A stretch of DNA of 64,000 bases from assembly GCF_019355395.1 (NCBI RefSeq), contig NZ_CP048829.1, positions 2,707,001 through 2,771,000 on the forward strand, written 5' to 3'. This document shows, piece by piece, positions 3-9,580 of this stretch. The DNA is from Chordicoccus furentiruminis (GTDB lineage Bacteria; Bacillota; Clostridia; Lachnospirales; Lachnospiraceae). The notes below the pieces were generated by a model, which did not search any database, had not been told where the DNA came from, and saw only the letters and a list, made by a program, of their open reading frames with translations. Position numbers and translations under genes: made by a program. Positions within the stretch are counted from its first letter, which is position 1, and each line of letters starts with the position of its first letter.

Positions 3-143
3 TTGAACCCATATGTGGACAGGCTGTATGTTGTTTCCACACCGAAATCCGGTCCATATAGACATCAGATGAAGATAGTGCCGGGGGTTCGAAAGTCGGG
101 AAAAGAGGGTGTGGAGGATGACAGACTACAGAAAGCGAATTGA
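3..143 (+). CDS. C-terminal end of a JetC-like (MukB/SbcC-type) ATPase, partial
   Basis: The frame is open from base 3 and stops at 141-143, giving the last 46 residues of a protein that begins upstream of the window. It contains LNPYVDRLYVVSTP, which resembles the tail of the SMC-like ATPase of Wadjet systems. The reading frame overlaps the start of the next gene, a JetD homologue, as expected for the jetABCD order. The fragment is too short to prove the family on its own; the assignment rests mainly on its position directly before jetD. Confidence 0.5.
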   Translation: MNPYVDRLYVVSTPKSGPYRHQMKIVPGVRKSGKEGVEDDRLQKAN

Positions 144-1365
144 AGCGGCAGCGGTTCGCAAAGTATATCAAGGCCGCGGGGAAAATGTGTATCTGTCCGC
201 TGCCAATATTGCTGATGCGGTGGGAGAACCTGATTATTCTGGAAAACGAAGCAATCTCCTCTCTATGGAAAGGAGAACCGCAATAAATGATGCCCTGAAA
301 GAACTGGAATCAGCGGGGCTGCTGAAGCTGAAGCGGGTAAGAAATCCGCATGCAGTCGTCTATCGTGCGGATATCAGCAGAGAACAGGGCTGCCGACTCT
401 ACGGCAGATACGGCTATACGGATCGGGAAGAGTCGGAACTTCTTCTCCAGTCTGAAATCAGGAAACTCCTGGAAAGCAGCAGTCTTATGCCCCAGACTAA
501 AGCATATCTGCACAACATACTTCTGCGGCCATTTGGGAAAGACTCTGTGTGGATGAAAACAAAAAGCTTTGGATCTTCTGATATCGAGAATGGATTGCAG
601 ATCATTAAGGGAGCAGATGCGGTGATCAGCAATGGCGAGCTGCAGCAAAATATCCTCGTCCGCAATCTGTCCGCATCTGTTTATGGGGGCTCCAAAACAT
701 TTGAGCATTATGAAAGCAGGATCTGCACCGCGATCCGCAGAATTCTGATGAGTGATGAAGAGAAAGACTGGGACCTGTTATTAGATGAGGCCGAGCAGTC
801 CGGGAAAAAAGTATATGAGCTATTCGGGGTATCAAAAAATCCGTTTTCAGAGACGATGAAAGGAAATGCCGAAATTACGACTCCGAATGGCACAATCCAT
901 ACATGCGGCTGTTCCTATGCTTTCTTTTCCGATGAAGAGGCTAGCTATCTTCATATCAGGATCCGGGACAGCAAACTGATCACGATTGAAAACCTTACAA
1001 CATATAATGATTTTTCAGAACCGTCCACTCTAAAAGTCTATACCGGGGGAATGCCTTCTCCTTTTCTTCAGAGACTGCTTAAGCGAATTGCGGAAGATAA
1101 CCCGGACCTGACGATTTCTCACTGGTCTGATATCGATGTGGGAGGATTCAGAATTTTCCGATTAATCAGTGAGAGCACAGAGGGACGTGCCATTCCATAC
1201 CATATGGATATTGAGACAATTCAGAATGCAATTGCAAAACAGCCTCTTTCGGATTGGGACAGAGAGCATCTGGAGAGTTTCCGCCATAAGGGCTGTTTTT
1301 CGAAAACAGCGGAATATATGCTGAAGGAGGACGTTAAGGTAGAGCAGGAAAGTGAACGAATATGA
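118..1365 (+). CDS. jetD: Wadjet defence system nuclease subunit JetD (DUF3322/DUF2220)
   Basis: JetD is the Toprim-like nuclease of Wadjet, an SMC-type system that recognises and cleaves circular plasmid DNA; it works with JetA, B and C, which would lie upstream. The protein of about 415 residues has an N-terminal winged-helix-like region and a C-terminal DUF2220-type region. The Toprim-like acidic signature is visible as an IEN Glu near residue 290 and the segment SHWSDIDVGGFRIFRLI near residue 340, comparable to the WGDIDTHGF segment of known JetD proteins. ATG at 118 or GTG at 109 are both possible starts; neither has ideally spaced ribosome binding sequence. The gene is clearly richer in A+T and in AGA/ATA codons than the genes that follow, which fits an acquired island. 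Confidence 0.8.
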   Translation: MTDYRKRIEAAAVRKVYQGRGENVYLSAANIADAVGEPDYSGKRSNLLSMERRTAINDALKELESAGLLKLKRVRNPHAVVYRADISREQGCRLYGRYGYTDREESELLLQSEIRKLLESSSLMPQTKAYLHNILLRPFGKDSVWMKTKSFGSSDIENGLQIIKGADAVISNGELQQNILVRNLSASVYGGSKTFEHYESRICTAIRRILMSDEEKDWDLLLDEAEQSGKKVYELFGVSKNPFSETMKGNAEITTPNGTIHTCGCSYAFFSDEEASYLHIRIRDSKLITIENLTTYNDFSEPSTLKVYTGGMPSPFLQRLLKRIAEDNPDLTISHWSDIDVGGFRIFRLISESTEGRAIPYHMDIETIQNAIAKQPLSDWDREHLESFRHKGCFSKTAEYMLKEDVKVEQESERI

Positions 1366-1772
1366 TTGAAAAAAATATCCTTGCAGTAAATCCCCTGCAC
1401 AGTGTAGTATACAATTACAAGGACAGAAGGATGGATGCATTGTCGATTTCGCCTGAGAAAGACTTTCTCAATTTCACTCTCGGCTTTCTCATTGTGTGAA
1501 GCAACTTTCTCAAAACTTTCTCACCGAAAAGTGAGAGTCTCAGAAGGAGAAAGAAGGCGGCTTGAAACGGAGTAATTCGGAATGGGAAAGGACAACGAAC
1601 CGACCATTTTACGGAGAAAACAGCAGCTTAATTCAGTTTAATGTGGGAAGAGAATGAACAAATTATTTGTCCTAGGCTACTACTTCCAGGCGTGATTCCA
1701 TCAGAGGGCGCCGCGGGAGGCTGCATGTCCCGCGCGCAGTCCGTCAGGCTGAAGACGCGGAGGTGACCGGCT
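1366..1772. other. Intergenic tail of the defence island with short repeats
   Basis: No convincing gene. 1454-1560 is packed with copies of CTTTCTCA (1463-1470, 1484-1491, 1505-1512, 1516-1523) and its complement TGAGAAAG (1454-1461); the first pair forms a near-perfect palindrome. Base composition changes from A+T-rich to the G+C-rich local norm at about 1690-1700, which is the likely island edge. A frame open from 1676 to a stop at 1781-1783 could be a remnant of an interrupted host gene, but it is too short to identify. Confidence 0.6.
1454..1540. repeat. Cluster of CTTTCTCA direct and inverted repeats
   Basis: Four forward copies of the octamer CTTTCTCA (starts 1463, 1484, 1505, 1516) and one inverted copy at 1454-1461 occur within 70 bases. 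A further inverted repeat, TCTCAC (1519-1524) with GTGAGA (1531-1536), overlaps the last copy. Spacing of 21, 21 and 11 bases is close to whole or half helical turns (two turns, two turns, one turn), which fits binding of a protein along one DNA face. Confidence 0.7.
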
Positions 1773-3215
1773 ACGCCAGCTGAACAGAAGAAGAAAAAAC
1801 AGAATTATTTCCGGAGTCTCCGGTTCCGGATCATGCTGGTCCTGATCGTGATCGGTCTGGCTCCGGTGATCATCGCTTCGTCCATTATCGTCCGGAGCTA
1901 TGAAGACAGAGCGGTCTCTGTACGGATCAGCAACGTCAAGAACCAGTGCGACATGCTGTGCAACCTTGTCGTATCGGAAGGCTTTCTCGAGCGGCCGTCG
2001 TCGAAGCTGCTGGACAGCGAGCTTACGCTGGTGGGCAACGTCTACAATGGGCGGATCCTGATCGTCGATTCAAGCTACAAGGTGATCAAGGATACGTTTG
2101 ATATCGATTCGGGCAAGACGTCCGTATCCAAGGAAGTCATCAGCTGCTTCCAGAGCGGGAGCGGCTCCACTCACTACGACAACCGGAACGCTTTTATCGA
2201 AATCACCGCACCCATCACCGACGGCCGCTCATCGGAGGTGAAGGGCGTGCTTCTCGCGTCCATTTCCACGAATGAGATCCTGCAGACGGTGAGGTATCTT
2301 GAGAATCAGGCGACGCTCATCGTGGTGCTGATGAGTACGGCGATTTTGCTGATGGGTTTCGTTCTGGCCAATATGCTGGTCAAGCCGTTCCATGACGTCA
2401 CCCGCGCGATTGAGGATGTGACAGACGGGTTCGAGGATCAGGCGATCTCCGTGCCGGATTACTCGGAGACCATGCAGATCATCGAGGCGTTCAACAATAT
2501 GCTCGCCCGCGTCCGGGCGCTTGACAACTCCAGACAGGAGTTTGTGTCCAACGTCTCCCATGAGCTCAAGACTCCGCTGACCTCCATGAAGGTGCTGGCG
2601 GACTCAATTAACGGCGCGGACAACGTACCGGTTGAAGTCTACCGGGAATTCATGAGTGACATCACAACGGAGATCGACCGCGAGAACAGCATCATTACCA
2701 GCCTGCTGACGATGGTCCGGCTCGACAAAAAGGCGGCCAGCATGAACTGGTCGAAGGTGGAGATCGGTCCGATGCTGGAGCAGATCATCAAACGTCTGAA
2801 GCCGATCGCCGACAAACGGAGCATCGACCTGATCCTCGATCCGTACCAGCCGGTGACGGCGGAGGTAGACGAGATGAAGATGTCCCTCGCCTTCTCCAAC
2901 CTGATCGAGAACGGAATCAAGTACAATATCGATGAGGGATGGGTCAGGGTGACGCTGAAGGCGGACAGCAAATACTTTTATGTTTCAGTGGCGGACTGCG
3001 GCCTCGGCATCGCGGAGGATCAGGTCGATCATATTTTCGAACGCTTTTACCGCGGTGACAAATCGCATTCCACCGAGATCGAAGGAACCGGGCTCGGGCT
3101 CTCCATCACGAAGAGCGTCATCGTGCTGCACCGCGGCGTGATCAAGGTCAGCAGCATGCTCGGAAAGGGGACCACCTTTATGGTGCGGATCCCGCTGGTC
3201 AGGCAGGAGAACTGA
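1773..3215 (+). CDS. Membrane sensor histidine kinase, probable ACG start
   Basis: Sensor kinase of a two-component system. From the ATG at 1833 the protein has TM1 (about 1-22), an extracytoplasmic region of about 130 residues, TM2 (about 158-180), HAMP, HisKA with FVSNVSHELKTPLTSMK (phospho-His near 243) and HATPase_c with N-box NLIENGIKYN, DCGLGIAEDQ and GTGLGLSI. There is no ribosome site before 1833. The same frame extends upstream to a TGA at 1764-1766 and encodes a basic cytoplasmic tail (KKKKQNYFRSLRFRI). A strong Shine-Dalgarno GGAGGTGA at 1759-1766 sits correctly before ACG at 1773, which I take as the start; no ATG, GTG or TTG exists in that interval. The usual neighbouring response regulator is absent. 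The next gene follows after one base. Confidence 0.85.
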   Translation, partial: TPAEQKKKKQNYFRSLRFRIMLVLIVIGLAPVIIASSIIVRSYEDRAVSVRISNVKNQCDMLCNLVVSEGFLERPSSKLLDSELTLVGNVYNGRILIVDSSYKVIKDTFDIDSGKTSVSKEVISCFQSGSGSTHYDNRNAFIEITAPITDGRSSEVKGVLLASISTNEILQTVRYLENQATLIVVLMSTAILLMGFVLANMLVKPFHDVTRAIEDVTDGFEDQAISVPDYSETMQIIEAFNNMLARVRALDNSRQEFVSNVSHELKTPLTSMKVLADSINGADNVPVEVYREFMSDITTEIDRENSIITSLLTMVRLDKKAASMNWSKVEIGPMLEQIIKRLKPIADKRSIDLILDPYQPVTAEVDEMKMSLAFSNLIENGIKYNIDEGWVRVTLKADSKYFYVSVADCGLGIAEDQVDHIFERFYRGDKSHSTEIEGTGLGLSITKSVIVLHRGVIKVSSMLGKGTTFMVRIPLVRQEN

Positions 3216-3216
3216 G

Positions 3217-4179
3217 ATGAGACGAGAAAGAAAAGGGTTCCGGCTCCTTGCCCTCATCAGCGCCGCCGCTGTGACGCTGACAGCCTGCAGCTTCGGCGCT
3301 CCGGGCGGGAAGGACGGAAAGAGTGAATCCGGACTGCTTGTCTACTATCTGAACCGGGAAGGGGACGGTCTTGTGACCGTCAGCGAACCGGCGCCGGACG
3401 GATCGGTCGCGGATCAGGTGGATCATCTGATCGCCGCCATGCAGACAGTGCCGAAGGAGGCGGACTATCAGGCCCTGCTACCTGATAACGTGACGCTGCA
3501 GAAATCCGAAGTGTCGGGCGGACTGCTTACGTTGGACTTCTCAAAGGGATATGAGAAGCTGTCGAGCACCCGGGAGGTGCTGGCCCGTGCCGGCGTGGTG
3601 CGGACGATGGTTCAGCTGGACAGCATCGACGGCGTGCAGTTCACCGTGGACGGGGCGGACGCGAAGGCGGCGGACGGCAAGACGCTCGGCGTCATGAACG
3701 CGGATACCTTTGTCGAGGATTCGGGCAAGATGATCAATGCGATCACGCACACATCCATCGACCTTTTCTTCGCCTCCAAGGACGGAGAGACGCTGAACCG
3801 GGAGTCGAGATCGATCTACTACAGCGCCAGCAAGCCGCTGGAGTGGGCGATCGTCGAACGGATCATCGCGGGACCGAAGGTAGAGGGCAATGATCCGACT
3901 GTGCCGTCAAATCTGCAGATCATCTCCGTGACATCCTCCAACGGAATCTGCTACGTCAATCTGAACGATACCTTTATCTCAAGTCCGCTCAGTGTTGACG
4001 AAAAAATACCGATCTATTCCATCGTCGATTCCATCTGCGAGAACTGCAGGGATATCCATGAGGTGCAGTTTGCGATCGACGGCGATTCCAATCTGACGTT
4101 CCGTCAGACGATGAAACTCGGGAAGCCGTTTAAACCGGATATGAGTCTGGTGAACGATTCCATCGAAAGCACGGACTGA
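3217..4179 (+). CDS. GerMN-domain lipoprotein
   Basis: A secreted lipoprotein of 320 residues with a signal peptide and lipobox ending LTAC, so it should be lipidated and anchored outside the membrane. Two GerMN-type modules follow (about residues 50-160 and 185-300), each with the TLDFS or YVNLND type strand. GerMN domains occur in the spore germination protein GerM and in the actinobacterial LpqB lipoprotein, which works with the MtrAB two-component system. It begins one base after the kinase stop, so the two are co-translated, and by analogy it may modulate the kinase. That functional link is inference. Confidence 0.8.
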   Translation: MRRERKGFRLLALISAAAVTLTACSFGAPGGKDGKSESGLLVYYLNREGDGLVTVSEPAPDGSVADQVDHLIAAMQTVPKEADYQALLPDNVTLQKSEVSGGLLTLDFSKGYEKLSSTREVLARAGVVRTMVQLDSIDGVQFTVDGADAKAADGKTLGVMNADTFVEDSGKMINAITHTSIDLFFASKDGETLNRESRSIYYSASKPLEWAIVERIIAGPKVEGNDPTVPSNLQIISVTSSNGICYVNLNDTFISSPLSVDEKIPIYSIVDSICENCRDIHEVQFAIDGDSNLTFRQTMKLGKPFKPDMSLVNDSIESTD

Positions 4180-6574: not shown

Positions 6575-7315
6575 ATGGCACTGTACGCACTGGGGGATCT
6601 TCATCTCAGCTTTCAGGCAGACAAACCGATGGACGCCTTCGGCCGGGTGTGGAAGCACCATGAGCGGAAGATCGGGACCTTTGTCCGGCAGACTGTGAAG
6701 CCGGAGGACACGCTGGTCCTCACGGGCGATCATTCGTGGGGACGGAAACTGGAGGAATGCCGCGAGGATCTCGCCTTCATCGAGAATCTGCCCGGCCGTA
6801 AGATCCTTTTACGCGGCAATCATGACATGTTCTGGGAGGCCGGGCACACGGCGCGCCTCAATGAGATGTACGGGGGACGGCTGCATTTTCTTCAGAACTC
6901 ATTTGAGACATATGAGGATTTTGCCCTGGTCGGGACGAAGGGATACACCTTCGAGGGCCCGTTTTACCTCGACCGGAGGGGACGGATCACCGGCTGGGAC
7001 GAAGAGAAGAAGGCGCAGGCGGACCGTCTTGTGGAGCGGGAGATGAAGCGGCTGCGGACGTCGTTCGGTCTGGCGGAGGCGGCCGGGTACCGACGCTTCA
7101 TCATGTTTCTGCATTATCCGCCGACCAGTATTCTGGAGACGGAGTCGCCTTTCACGAAAGTCGCGGAGGAGTACGGTGTCTCGGCTGTGGTGTACTCCCA
7201 CTGTCACGGGAAGGCGCGCTTCGGAGACAGCATCAGGGGCACGTTTCACGGAATCCGCTACATGCTGGTGAGCGGAGATTATCTGAACTTCCATCCGGCG
7301 CTTGTACTCGAATAA
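6575..7315 (+). CDS. Calcineurin-like metallophosphoesterase
   Basis: Cytosolic metal-dependent phosphoesterase of 246 residues. The family motifs are in order: GDLHLSF near the N-terminus, GDHSWG, LRGNHD, LHYPP and YSHCHGK near the C-terminus, giving the two-metal site. Substrate is unknown. ATG 6575 is preferred because AAAGGAGGA precedes it; a longer frame from 6464 would overlap comEC and has no ribosome site. It ends at a bidirectional terminator shared with hcp. Confidence 0.88.
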   Translation: MALYALGDLHLSFQADKPMDAFGRVWKHHERKIGTFVRQTVKPEDTLVLTGDHSWGRKLEECREDLAFIENLPGRKILLRGNHDMFWEAGHTARLNEMYGGRLHFLQNSFETYEDFALVGTKGYTFEGPFYLDRRGRITGWDEEKKAQADRLVEREMKRLRTSFGLAEAAGYRRFIMFLHYPPTSILETESPFTKVAEEYGVSAVVYSHCHGKARFGDSIRGTFHGIRYMLVSGDYLNFHPALVLE

Positions 7316-7350
7316 AAGAAAGGGGCCGCTGCAGATGCAGCGACCCTTTT
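7316..7350. terminator. Bidirectional terminator between the phosphoesterase and hcp
   Basis: CGCTGCA (7327-7333) pairs with TGCAGCG (7336-7342), extended after one mismatch by GGG with CCC (7344-7346) and by A and T runs on both sides. It separates convergent genes. Confidence 0.85.
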
Positions 7351-7367
7351 GCGATGAACGGACAGTG

Positions 7368-9011
7368 TCAGTTTTCTCCGAAGAACAGCTTCAGATCCTC
7401 GTCCACTGTGGTGATGCCGGCGATGCCGAAGTTTTTGACCAGCACATCGGTCACGTTCGGAGAGAGGAAGGCCGGAAGCGTCGGTCCGAGGTGAATATTC
7501 TTCACTCCGAGGGAGAGCAGGGCGAGCAGGACGATGACGGCCTTCTGCTCGTACCAGGCAATGTTGAACGCCAGCGGGAGCTGATTGACGTCGTCGAGCC
7601 CGAAGATCTCCTTCAGCTTGAGCGCGATCAGAGCCAGAGAGTAGCTGTCATTGCACTGTCCGGCGTCCAGCACTCTGGGGATGCCGCCGATGTCGCCCAG
7701 CGGAAGTTTGTTGTACTTGTACTTCGCGCAGCCGGCGGTCAGAATCACCACATCCTTCGGAAGACGCTTCGCAAATTCGGCGTAGTACTCCCGGGACTTC
7801 ATGCGGCCGTCGCAGCCGGCCATCACGACGAACTTGCGAATGGCACCGGACTTCACCGCATCCACGATCTTATCCGCGAGGGCAAAGACCTGCTCGTGGG
7901 CGAAGCCGCCGACGATCGTGCCCGTCTCAAGCTCCGTCGGCGGAGCGCAGTGCTTCGCCTGCTCGATGATGCCGGAGAAATCCTTCGTCTCGCCGTAGGC
8001 GCCGTCAATATGGCGGCAGCCCGGCACGCCGGTGGCGCCTGTTGTCCAGAGGCGGTCCCTGTAGCTGTCCGCGGGCGGAACGACGCAGTTGGTCGTCATC
8101 AGAATCGGTCCGTTGAAGGAAGCAAACTCTTCCTTCTGCTTCCACCACGCGTTGCCGTAGTTGCCGGCGAAGTTCGGGTACTTTTTAAATGCCGGATAGT
8201 AGTGGGCCGGCAGCATCTCCGAATGCGTGTAGACGTCAATGCCGGTGCCCTGCGTCTGCTCAAGCAGCATCTCCAGATCACGGAGGTCATGGCCGGAGAC
8301 GAGGATGCCCGGATTGCTCCGCACGCCGAGATCGACCCTGGTGATCTCCGGGCTGCCGTAGGCGCCTGTATTGGCCTCGTCGAGCAGCGCCATGCCCGTT
8401 ACGCCGTACTTGCCGGTTTCCAGCGTGAGTGCGACGAGATCGTCCGCGCTCAGGCTGTCGTCGAGCGTCGCGGCCAGCGCCCGCTGAATGAACGCGTCGA
8501 CCTCCTCGTTTTCCTTCAGCAGCGCGTTGGCATGCTTCGTGTAGGCGGAGAGACCCTTGAGACCGTAGGTGATCAGTTCGCGGAGACTGCGGATATCCTC
8601 GTTTTCCGTCGCCAGCACGCCGACAGAGGCCGCCTTCTCATCGAAGGAGTCCGGATTGCCGTCCCAGCGCGCGGCTTCCGGAAGACGGCCGGATCCGGCG
8701 CAGAGGGCAAGCAGAGAACGCTTCATCTCGAGCGTATCGCAGATTTTCCGGACGATCGCCTCCCGGTCGAAGTTGGCGTTGGTGATGGTGGTGAAAAGGT
8801 TCAGTGTCACCAGATGGTTGACATCCTTTCCGATTTCCTTTCCTTCCTTCCTGAGCTCAGTGGTGACGCAGGAAAGACCCTTCGTCACATAGATCAGAAG
8901 ATCCTGCATCCGGGCCACTTCCGGCTTCTTGCCGCAGACGCCGCAGCGTGTGCAGCCCTTTCCTCCTGCTGTTTCCTGACACTGATAGCAGAACATAGCC
9001 TGTTCCATCAT
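7368..9011 (-). CDS. hcp: Hydroxylamine reductase / hybrid-cluster protein
   Basis: Hcp reduces hydroxylamine and NO-derived species through a [4Fe-2S-2O] hybrid cluster and a [4Fe-4S] cluster; it protects anaerobes from nitrosative stress. The 547-residue length is normal. The N-terminal cluster motif reads [20 protein letters not shown]: the standard Cys spacing of the anaerobic class plus one extra Cys. ATG 9011 follows GAGGAGAAT; the second Met at 9008 is an alternative. The gene stands alone on the minus strand with its own promoter and a CRP/FNR-like palindrome upstream. Confidence 0.95.
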
Positions 9012-9080
9012 ATTCTCCTCTTTTCATACGCCGGTTCCAAAGATCCGGCTTTTGTGTGCCTGTTTCCTGTCACTGCAGTC

Positions 9081-9124
9081 AGATTAGCACAGCGTTCCGG
9101 ACCTGTATGTTGCCGGAGCAACAT
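9081..9124 (-). promoter_or_regulatory. hcp promoter with CRP/FNR-like palindrome
   Basis: The palindrome ATGTTGC-CGGA-GCAACAT lies at 9107-9124 with perfect 7-base arms. On the minus strand an extended -10 (TGC then TAATCT, 9081-9086) follows. A start site about 7 bases downstream (near 9074) would put the palindrome centre at about -41.5, the class II activator position. No good -35 is present, which fits an activated promoter. HcpR-type CRP/FNR regulators are known to control hcp in anaerobes; the regulator gene is not in this window. Confidence 0.6.
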
Positions 9125-9167
9125 CTTCGGAACGGCGGATGCATTTTCCAAAAAAAACAAAAACCAC

Positions 9168-9204
9168 TTGACTAGAGCAATAGTGTATTATATAACTAGT
9201 ACAC
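9168..9204 (+). promoter_or_regulatory. Promoter and YtrA-type operator of the gntR-ABC operon
   Basis: TTGACT (9168-9173), 17-base spacer and TATAAC (9191-9196). An inverted repeat GTGTA (9183-9187) with TACAC (9200-9204), with further matching bases inside, covers the -10. YtrA-subfamily GntR repressors bind such GTGTA/TACAC sites near their own genes, so autorepression is likely. Confidence 0.75.
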
Positions 9205-9229
9205 AAGCTGAACGGAAAGGAGACAGAGA

Positions 9230-9580
9230 ATGGAGCTGAATACATCGCTGCCCATCTATCTTCAGGTGGTGCATGCGATTGAGACCGATATCGCGGCCGG
9301 CCGGCTGAAGCCGGGAGAGAAGCTTCCGTCCGGAAGAGAGCTTGCCGTCGCGTGGAAGATCAACCCGAATACGGCCGCCCGCGTCTATCAGGTGCTGGAG
9401 GCGCAGGGCGTCTGCACGACGAAGCGCGGACTGGGTACGTTTGTGACGGGAGATGAGGGCGCACGTGATCGGATCCGGACGGAGATGGCCAGAAATCTGG
9501 TCGGGGAATTTCTGAGGAACATGCGGGAGCTCGGGTACACCGATGAGGAGATCCGGGGCAGACTGAAGGAGGAAATGTGA
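9230..9580 (+). CDS. GntR-family regulator, YtrA subfamily
   Basis: A 116-residue DNA-binding protein with an N-terminal winged helix (IYLQVVHAIETDIAAGRLKPGEKLPSGRELA in pieces across residues 7-45, followed by INPNTAARVYQVLEAQG) and only a short C-terminal tail. The small size without a ligand domain is typical of the YtrA subfamily, which regulates adjacent ABC transporter genes. AAGGAGACAGAGA precedes the ATG. Its TGA overlaps the ATG of the ABC ATPase, so the operon is translationally coupled. Confidence 0.9.
   Translation: MELNTSLPIYLQVVHAIETDIAAGRLKPGEKLPSGRELAVAWKINPNTAARVYQVLEAQGVCTTKRGLGTFVTGDEGARDRIRTEMARNLVGEFLRNMRELGYTDEEIRGRLKEEM

Follow-up and report, generated by a model that had tools for sequence, protein, structure and literature searches.

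The window, as we call the whole 64,000-nt stretch of Chordicoccus furentiruminis DNA that was analysed, carries a gene for a sensor histidine kinase beside the edge of a genomic island, followed in the same operon by a gene for a GerMN-domain lipoprotein. The features on which the analysis turns are the following.

1675-1686, + strand: right-hand copy of the 12-nt island attachment repeat GGCTACTACTTC; the identical 12 nt lie at the 3′ end of the response regulator (RR) gene, L052:2170-2181 (G000:C1:2620598)
1675-1694, + strand: relic of the native RR 3′ end (GYYFQA-stop), matching the RR C-terminus KWGVGYYFQ of relatives
1759-1766, + strand: candidate Shine-Dalgarno sequence (SD) of the kinase, GGAGGTGA, containing TGA 1764; −13.8 kcal/mol, 6 nt before the ACG
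1773-1775, + strand: putative kinase start codon ACG, the only in-frame candidate backed by an SD; aligned with near-cognate codons in relatives
1773-3215, + strand: sensor histidine kinase, 480 aa plus stop, with two membrane helices, an extracellular sensor, HisKA and HATPase_c (Pfam, AlphaFold model; nearest WalK/VicK)
1833-1835, + strand: first standard start, ATG, within membrane helix 1; rejected as the start (codon unconserved, SD weak and misplaced, model helix 16-68 spanning residue 21)
3217-4179, + strand: GerMN-domain lipoprotein gene, same operon, normal ATG (Germane domain, Pfam PF10646; SD −7.4)

The candidate SD was recognised by direct inspection of the window, and its last three bases form TGA 1764-1766, a stop in the kinase frame. 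The codons after ACG 1773 are CCA GCT GAA CAG AAG AAG AAA AAA CAG AAT TAT TTC CGG AGT CTC CGG TTC CGG ATC, then ATG 1833, so that no ATG, GTG, TTG or CTG precedes the latter in frame; ORF calling opens the longest kinase frame with a standard start at 1833. A duplex with the 16S 3′ end as strong as that preceding ACG 1773 is reached by 0.27% of random window positions. By itself the 8-base motif is not rare, with five copies in the window and 2.4 expected, and its weight derives instead from its position and from the relatives described below. The SD of ATG 1833 reaches merely −5.9 kcal/mol at a spacing of 15 nt, and ATC 1830 was rejected as a start (−6.1 at 12 nt). The initial annotation had claimed that GGAGGTGA is correctly spaced from ACG 1773, that no standard start exists between TGA 1764 and ATG 1833, and that ATG 1833 lacks a ribosome site and lies inside the first membrane helix; all three claims held, and the second extends to CTG.

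Translation from ATG 1833 would yield a 460-aa kinase without the basic tail, and this codon, as the first standard start, is the one that ORF callers would choose. We nevertheless consider this highly improbable, because, besides its weak and distant SD, many relatives have ACG, CTG, ACA or GCG in its place and the residues upstream of it (..YFRSLRFRI) are conserved. In the AlphaFold model, a short N-terminal helix (2-13) is followed by a long one (16-68), and residue 21, encoded by ATG 1833, falls within the latter. Comparison with the related locus L028 revealed 3, 2 and 11 changes at codon positions one, two and three, respectively, in the stretch before this ATG, a preponderance of third-position changes which argues that the stretch is coding.

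The product is a histidine kinase, as initially annotated, with matches to PF00512 (1.5e-11) and PF02518 (1e-24). Its catalytic motifs are intact, with an invariant SHELKTP and invariant N and G boxes, leaving both the H-box and the ATPase domain in place. The best full-length match of the AlphaFold model is WalK, and in profile and fold comparisons the kinase and its partner RR come closest to WalK/VicK and WalR/YycF, respectively. Unlike WalK and WalR, however, both proteins score below the NCBIfam cut-offs (239 bits for the kinase against 725 for WalK NF033092; 277 bits for the RR against 340 for YycF/WalR NF040534), and the gene order around the kinase in relatives is ComEA-RR-kinase-GerMN-ComEC.

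The partner RR gene, at G000:C1:2619929, lies 88 kb from the kinase and shares 89% identity with the RR of L005. GGCTACTACTTC forms a direct repeat whose two copies are 88,077 bp apart, the upstream one at the RR 3′ end and the other in the window. The native RR tail CAGGCGTGA comes after the window copy, indicating that an 88,077-bp element is integrated in the RR 3′ end; on the far side of the island, the RR today terminates in ..KWGVGYYF-SH (GYYFSH). The repeat, and the distance between kinase and RR, bear out the earlier proposal of an island edge beside the kinase. In our reconstruction of the locus before insertion, the putative ACG start lies 79 nt past the RR stop.

A Wadjet-like jetABCD cluster occupies the right end of the island (L047:12859-19999 plus window 109-1365, with DUF4194, AAA/SbcC pieces and JetD_C), and its jetC-like gene is apparently split by an ISL3-family transposase (L047:15959-17371). 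Just inside the left end (L052:2322-3684), an integrase-like frame, recognised by eye and with no Pfam hit, runs into an apparent transposase on the opposite strand. The catalytic domain PF00589 was not found anywhere in the island, which may therefore be immobile. Loci from other species of the genus (L212, L213 and L214) contain about 2.5 to 10 kb of unrelated DNA between RR and kinase, suggesting that this junction has been invaded repeatedly. Elsewhere in the window, a long open frame (7302-9239, + strand) lies antisense to an ORF resembling, by eye, hydroxylamine reductase (hybrid-cluster protein; 7368-9011, − strand), and is probably a composition effect.

The insertion raises the possibility that the start codon was lost, through mutation or base error, and that the kinase has been unexpressed or degenerating ever since the operon was broken up by the island. 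The 88 kb cut the kinase from the operon promoter, and a scan upstream of the window kinase found no promoter-like site on the kinase strand. Even so, the 480-aa frame is unbroken, no catalytic motif is damaged, the SD is perfect, and standard starts are missing also in relatives with and without insertions, making such a loss very unlikely.

All 42 genomes searched from the genus gave a kinase match, nearly all of them a close orthologue, as did 220 of the family's 299 at E ≤ 1e-120; no relative was found in viral contigs. We inspected the start regions of 39 loci in the genus and 88 in other genera, 127 in all. The infC, RR and GerMN genes served as controls; RR starts in the same loci as the kinases were standard in 108 of 108. 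In the clade of the window, where the two genes are separate, the SD is followed by ACG in the window, L033 and L034, by ATT in L028, L029, L030 and L038, and by ATA in L036 and L032 (where ATC is also possible), and in each of these relatives the codon stands behind the best in-frame SD. The strength of the SD at the near-cognate codon in relatives ranges from about −6.5 to −13.8 kcal/mol. ATG occupies the kinase start in L031, L035/L037 and L046. The tree places L028, which has ATT, as the sister of the window, and the residues downstream of the start align (TPAEQKKKKQNYFRSLRFRI versus IQTGEKKKKQNFFRSLRFRF). In L063 the equivalent position is an ATG preceded by GAGAGGAACGCCT, an independent marker of the start site.

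This class of codon is kept across species, as ATT, ATA or ACG in the genus and family and as ATT in other families, ATT being the commonest overall, with a minority of relatives having an SD-backed ATG, TTG or GTG, which suggests that a weak start is not obligatory. The initial annotation had left two options, low-efficiency use of ACG or a mutated ATG, and had proposed a comparison with close relatives. That comparison, in which the matching codon is ATT, ATA or ACG behind a strong SD, supports the first option and speaks against the second, since the sister lineage has ATT and related lineages ATT, ATA or ACG; a kinase beginning at the 1833 position, which would have favoured the shorter protein, was found in none of the relatives examined. 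Judged from these alignments, ACG 1773 is not a one-off mutation, and near-cognate starts appear to be the ancestral state of the kinase gene in the genus rather than island damage.

The kinase frame opens inside the RR 3′ end in 65 of the 127 loci (17 from the genus and 48 from other genera). RR codons TGG GGN GTN GGN TAY TAY TTY read GGG GNG TNG GNT AYT AYT TYC in the kinase frame, and in these overlap loci the conserved Gly-Tyr-Tyr-Phe codons of the RR give ATT behind a GGGGAG-type SD. Several further families of the order share this arrangement (L192, L195, L196, L198, L200, L203, L204, L209 and L211), as does an Anaerotignum MAG (L018). The distance from the RR stop to the SLRF motif of the kinase varies from 13 to 40, always in the same phase (1 mod 3), and 65 of the 74 loci with an RR-kinase gap below 45 nt share the frame phase despite indels. 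No ATG, GTG or TTG exists between SD and SLRF in 29 of the 65 overlap loci; in 13, an in-frame stop stands directly before AYT AYT, leaving AYT alone. A TTG lies two codons upstream of the near-cognate start in 28 of the 65, badly placed because it touches the SD and an unlikely, though conceivable, start in those loci; this TTG was rejected as a general start, having zero spacing and being absent from the other 37.

A frame open into the RR gene in constant phase might also reflect programmed frameshifting that produces an RR-kinase fusion, with the ACG arrangement of the window as a secondary derivative. We consider this extremely improbable and rejected it: no slippery motif was seen, separated loci keep an SD and a near-cognate codon with stops upstream and no adjacent RR, and the codon bias of the RR genes fits the spacing of SD and start.

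This bias is evident at each critical position of the junction. The pair TAC-TAC, which removes both ATTs, was found in 0 of 63 overlap loci, where the codon use of the individual loci predicts 9.7, and in 5 of 42 separate loci (5.5 expected); it was likewise absent from 46 non-genus loci taken as one genome per genus (6.0 expected) and from the 27 overlap loci with an upstream TTG (4.0 expected). GGA, which forms the SD by making GGGGAG, is used in 41/65 overlap versus 5/46 separate loci, and the SD-breaking GGC in 2/65 versus 26/46; GGT stands just before the start in 51/65 versus 10/46. P values for GGA, GGC, GGT and TAC-TAC, with shared ancestry ignored, were 2e-8, 8e-11, 3e-9 and 0.009, respectively. 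Codon choice in overlap loci thus keeps the SD and at least one ATT. The only overlap case of TAC-TAC (ACT ACT) is L170, with TTG as the next codon, and in L168, L182 and L009 a Phe-to-Tyr change in the RR makes the next codon ATG; these exceptions agree with the position proposed for the near-cognate start. We also observed that the Val codon before GYY avoids GTC in overlap RR 3′ ends (1/65 versus 13/44) and is often GTA, so that in the kinase frame a TAG immediately precedes the start.

Amino acids of the RR force AYT AYT in the kinase frame, and the overlap start could accordingly be a by-product of the Tyr-Tyr constraint, with AUU tolerated and weak initiation unselected. This alternative, which concerns the purpose and not the use of the codon, and is compatible with the use of a near-cognate start, seems unlikely to us, because near-cognate codons persist across divergent species in copies free of RR coding. 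Besides the clade of the window, L058 and L060 carry after the RR stop a second copy of the RR tail (GGGGTGTAAGCCATTTTTTCC), non-coding for the RR, that retains SD and ATT, and L044, with an insertion of about 540 nt, retains ATTATTTCCAG behind a new GGGGA SD, suggesting that the weak start persists without the coding constraint. Partial conversions to ATG do occur, so that drift would play some part, but the near-cognate start is most likely under selection.

We therefore favour, as the probable explanation, a near-cognate kinase start (AUU; ACG here) that would be an old, order-wide design, probably holding the kinase well below the RR. In the window, ribosomes would start at ACG 1773, driven by the perfect SD, and produce a protein of 480 aa whose first membrane helix is preceded by a basic cytoplasmic tail. 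The ancestral layout would have had its AUU start inside the last RR codons, where GGN TAY TAY TTY reads AYT AYT TYC in the +1 frame, and its SD supplied by the RR codons TGG GGA GTN; in the lineage of the window the genes would have come apart, the kinase gaining a strong SD of its own and keeping a near-cognate codon (ATT, ATA or ACG). Poor decoding in the P site would keep kinase synthesis well under that of the RR, giving an excess of RR; a low kinase-to-RR ratio is usual in two-component systems. The sequences themselves establish where the codons lie, the lack of standard starts, the constant frame phase, the biased codon choice and the conservation; the use of these codons by ribosomes, their low yield and their purpose in dosage are what we infer from this pattern, together with a probable sensitivity of kinase initiation to IF3. 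Slightly more likely than not, the last codons of the WalR-like RR would be selected twice throughout the order, for the conserved C-terminal WGVGYYF and for the SD and AUU of its own kinase, whose dose, perhaps tuned by IF3, would thereby be fixed in the RR coding sequence; kinases separated from the RR by mobile elements or inserted genes would re-evolve a strong SD while keeping the weak start. The infC gene of the same genome (L165, G000:C1:244170-244379, − strand) has AGGAGG, nine bases and then ATA, with no nearby standard start with a well-placed SD; from its sequence, it appears to start at ATA, as in S. aureus.

To our knowledge, no more than a few bacterial genes are recognised as having a conserved non-AUG start. 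Standard gene finders accept ATG, GTG and TTG only, and if the near-cognate starts are used, annotated N-termini of these kinases would therefore often be wrong. The case concerns a signalling kinase whose near-cognate start is apparently kept across an order of gut and rumen bacteria and written inside the partner gene. If used, this start would offer a clean natural example of a start codon that sets protein dosage, in which a one-codon swap could test the value of a low kinase-to-regulator ratio. The principle of a weak start is known from infC, pcnB and S. aureus ccpN and cvfC1; our literature searches found no report of a near-cognate start in this order-wide kinase, which is apparently an unreported case.

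Among known systems, E. coli infC has an AUU start through which IF3 autoregulates its own synthesis, and Binns and Masters reportedly found in 2002 that a weak AUU start limits the synthesis of pcnB. Both resemble our proposal in that a weak AUU start limits synthesis, but they are single genes of other function, without ACG. S. aureus cvfC1 (AUU), ccpN (AUA) and infC (AUA) combine, like the window kinase, a conserved near-cognate start with a strong SD, and in cvfC1 and ccpN a strong SD with AUU or AUA yields about 10% of AUG (PMC13009471). They are not two-component kinases, however, nor are their starts said to lie within a preceding gene, and those AUU and AUA starts were experimentally measured, whereas that of the window kinase is deduced and is ACG. 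Borrelia burgdorferi PncA likewise has an AUU start and a longer N-terminus that is truncated in databases, but is an enzyme in one species (PMC13398362). In the phosphorelay protein RcsD-Hpt of Y. pestis, the AUU start is functional but weaker than AUG, lowering the level of the protein, and a swap to AUG raises function; unlike the order-wide kinase start, it is an internal start made by a frameshift in one pathogen (PMC10191623). Initiation at AUU is also functional in Clostridium butyricum and C. sporogenes (PMC11040787).
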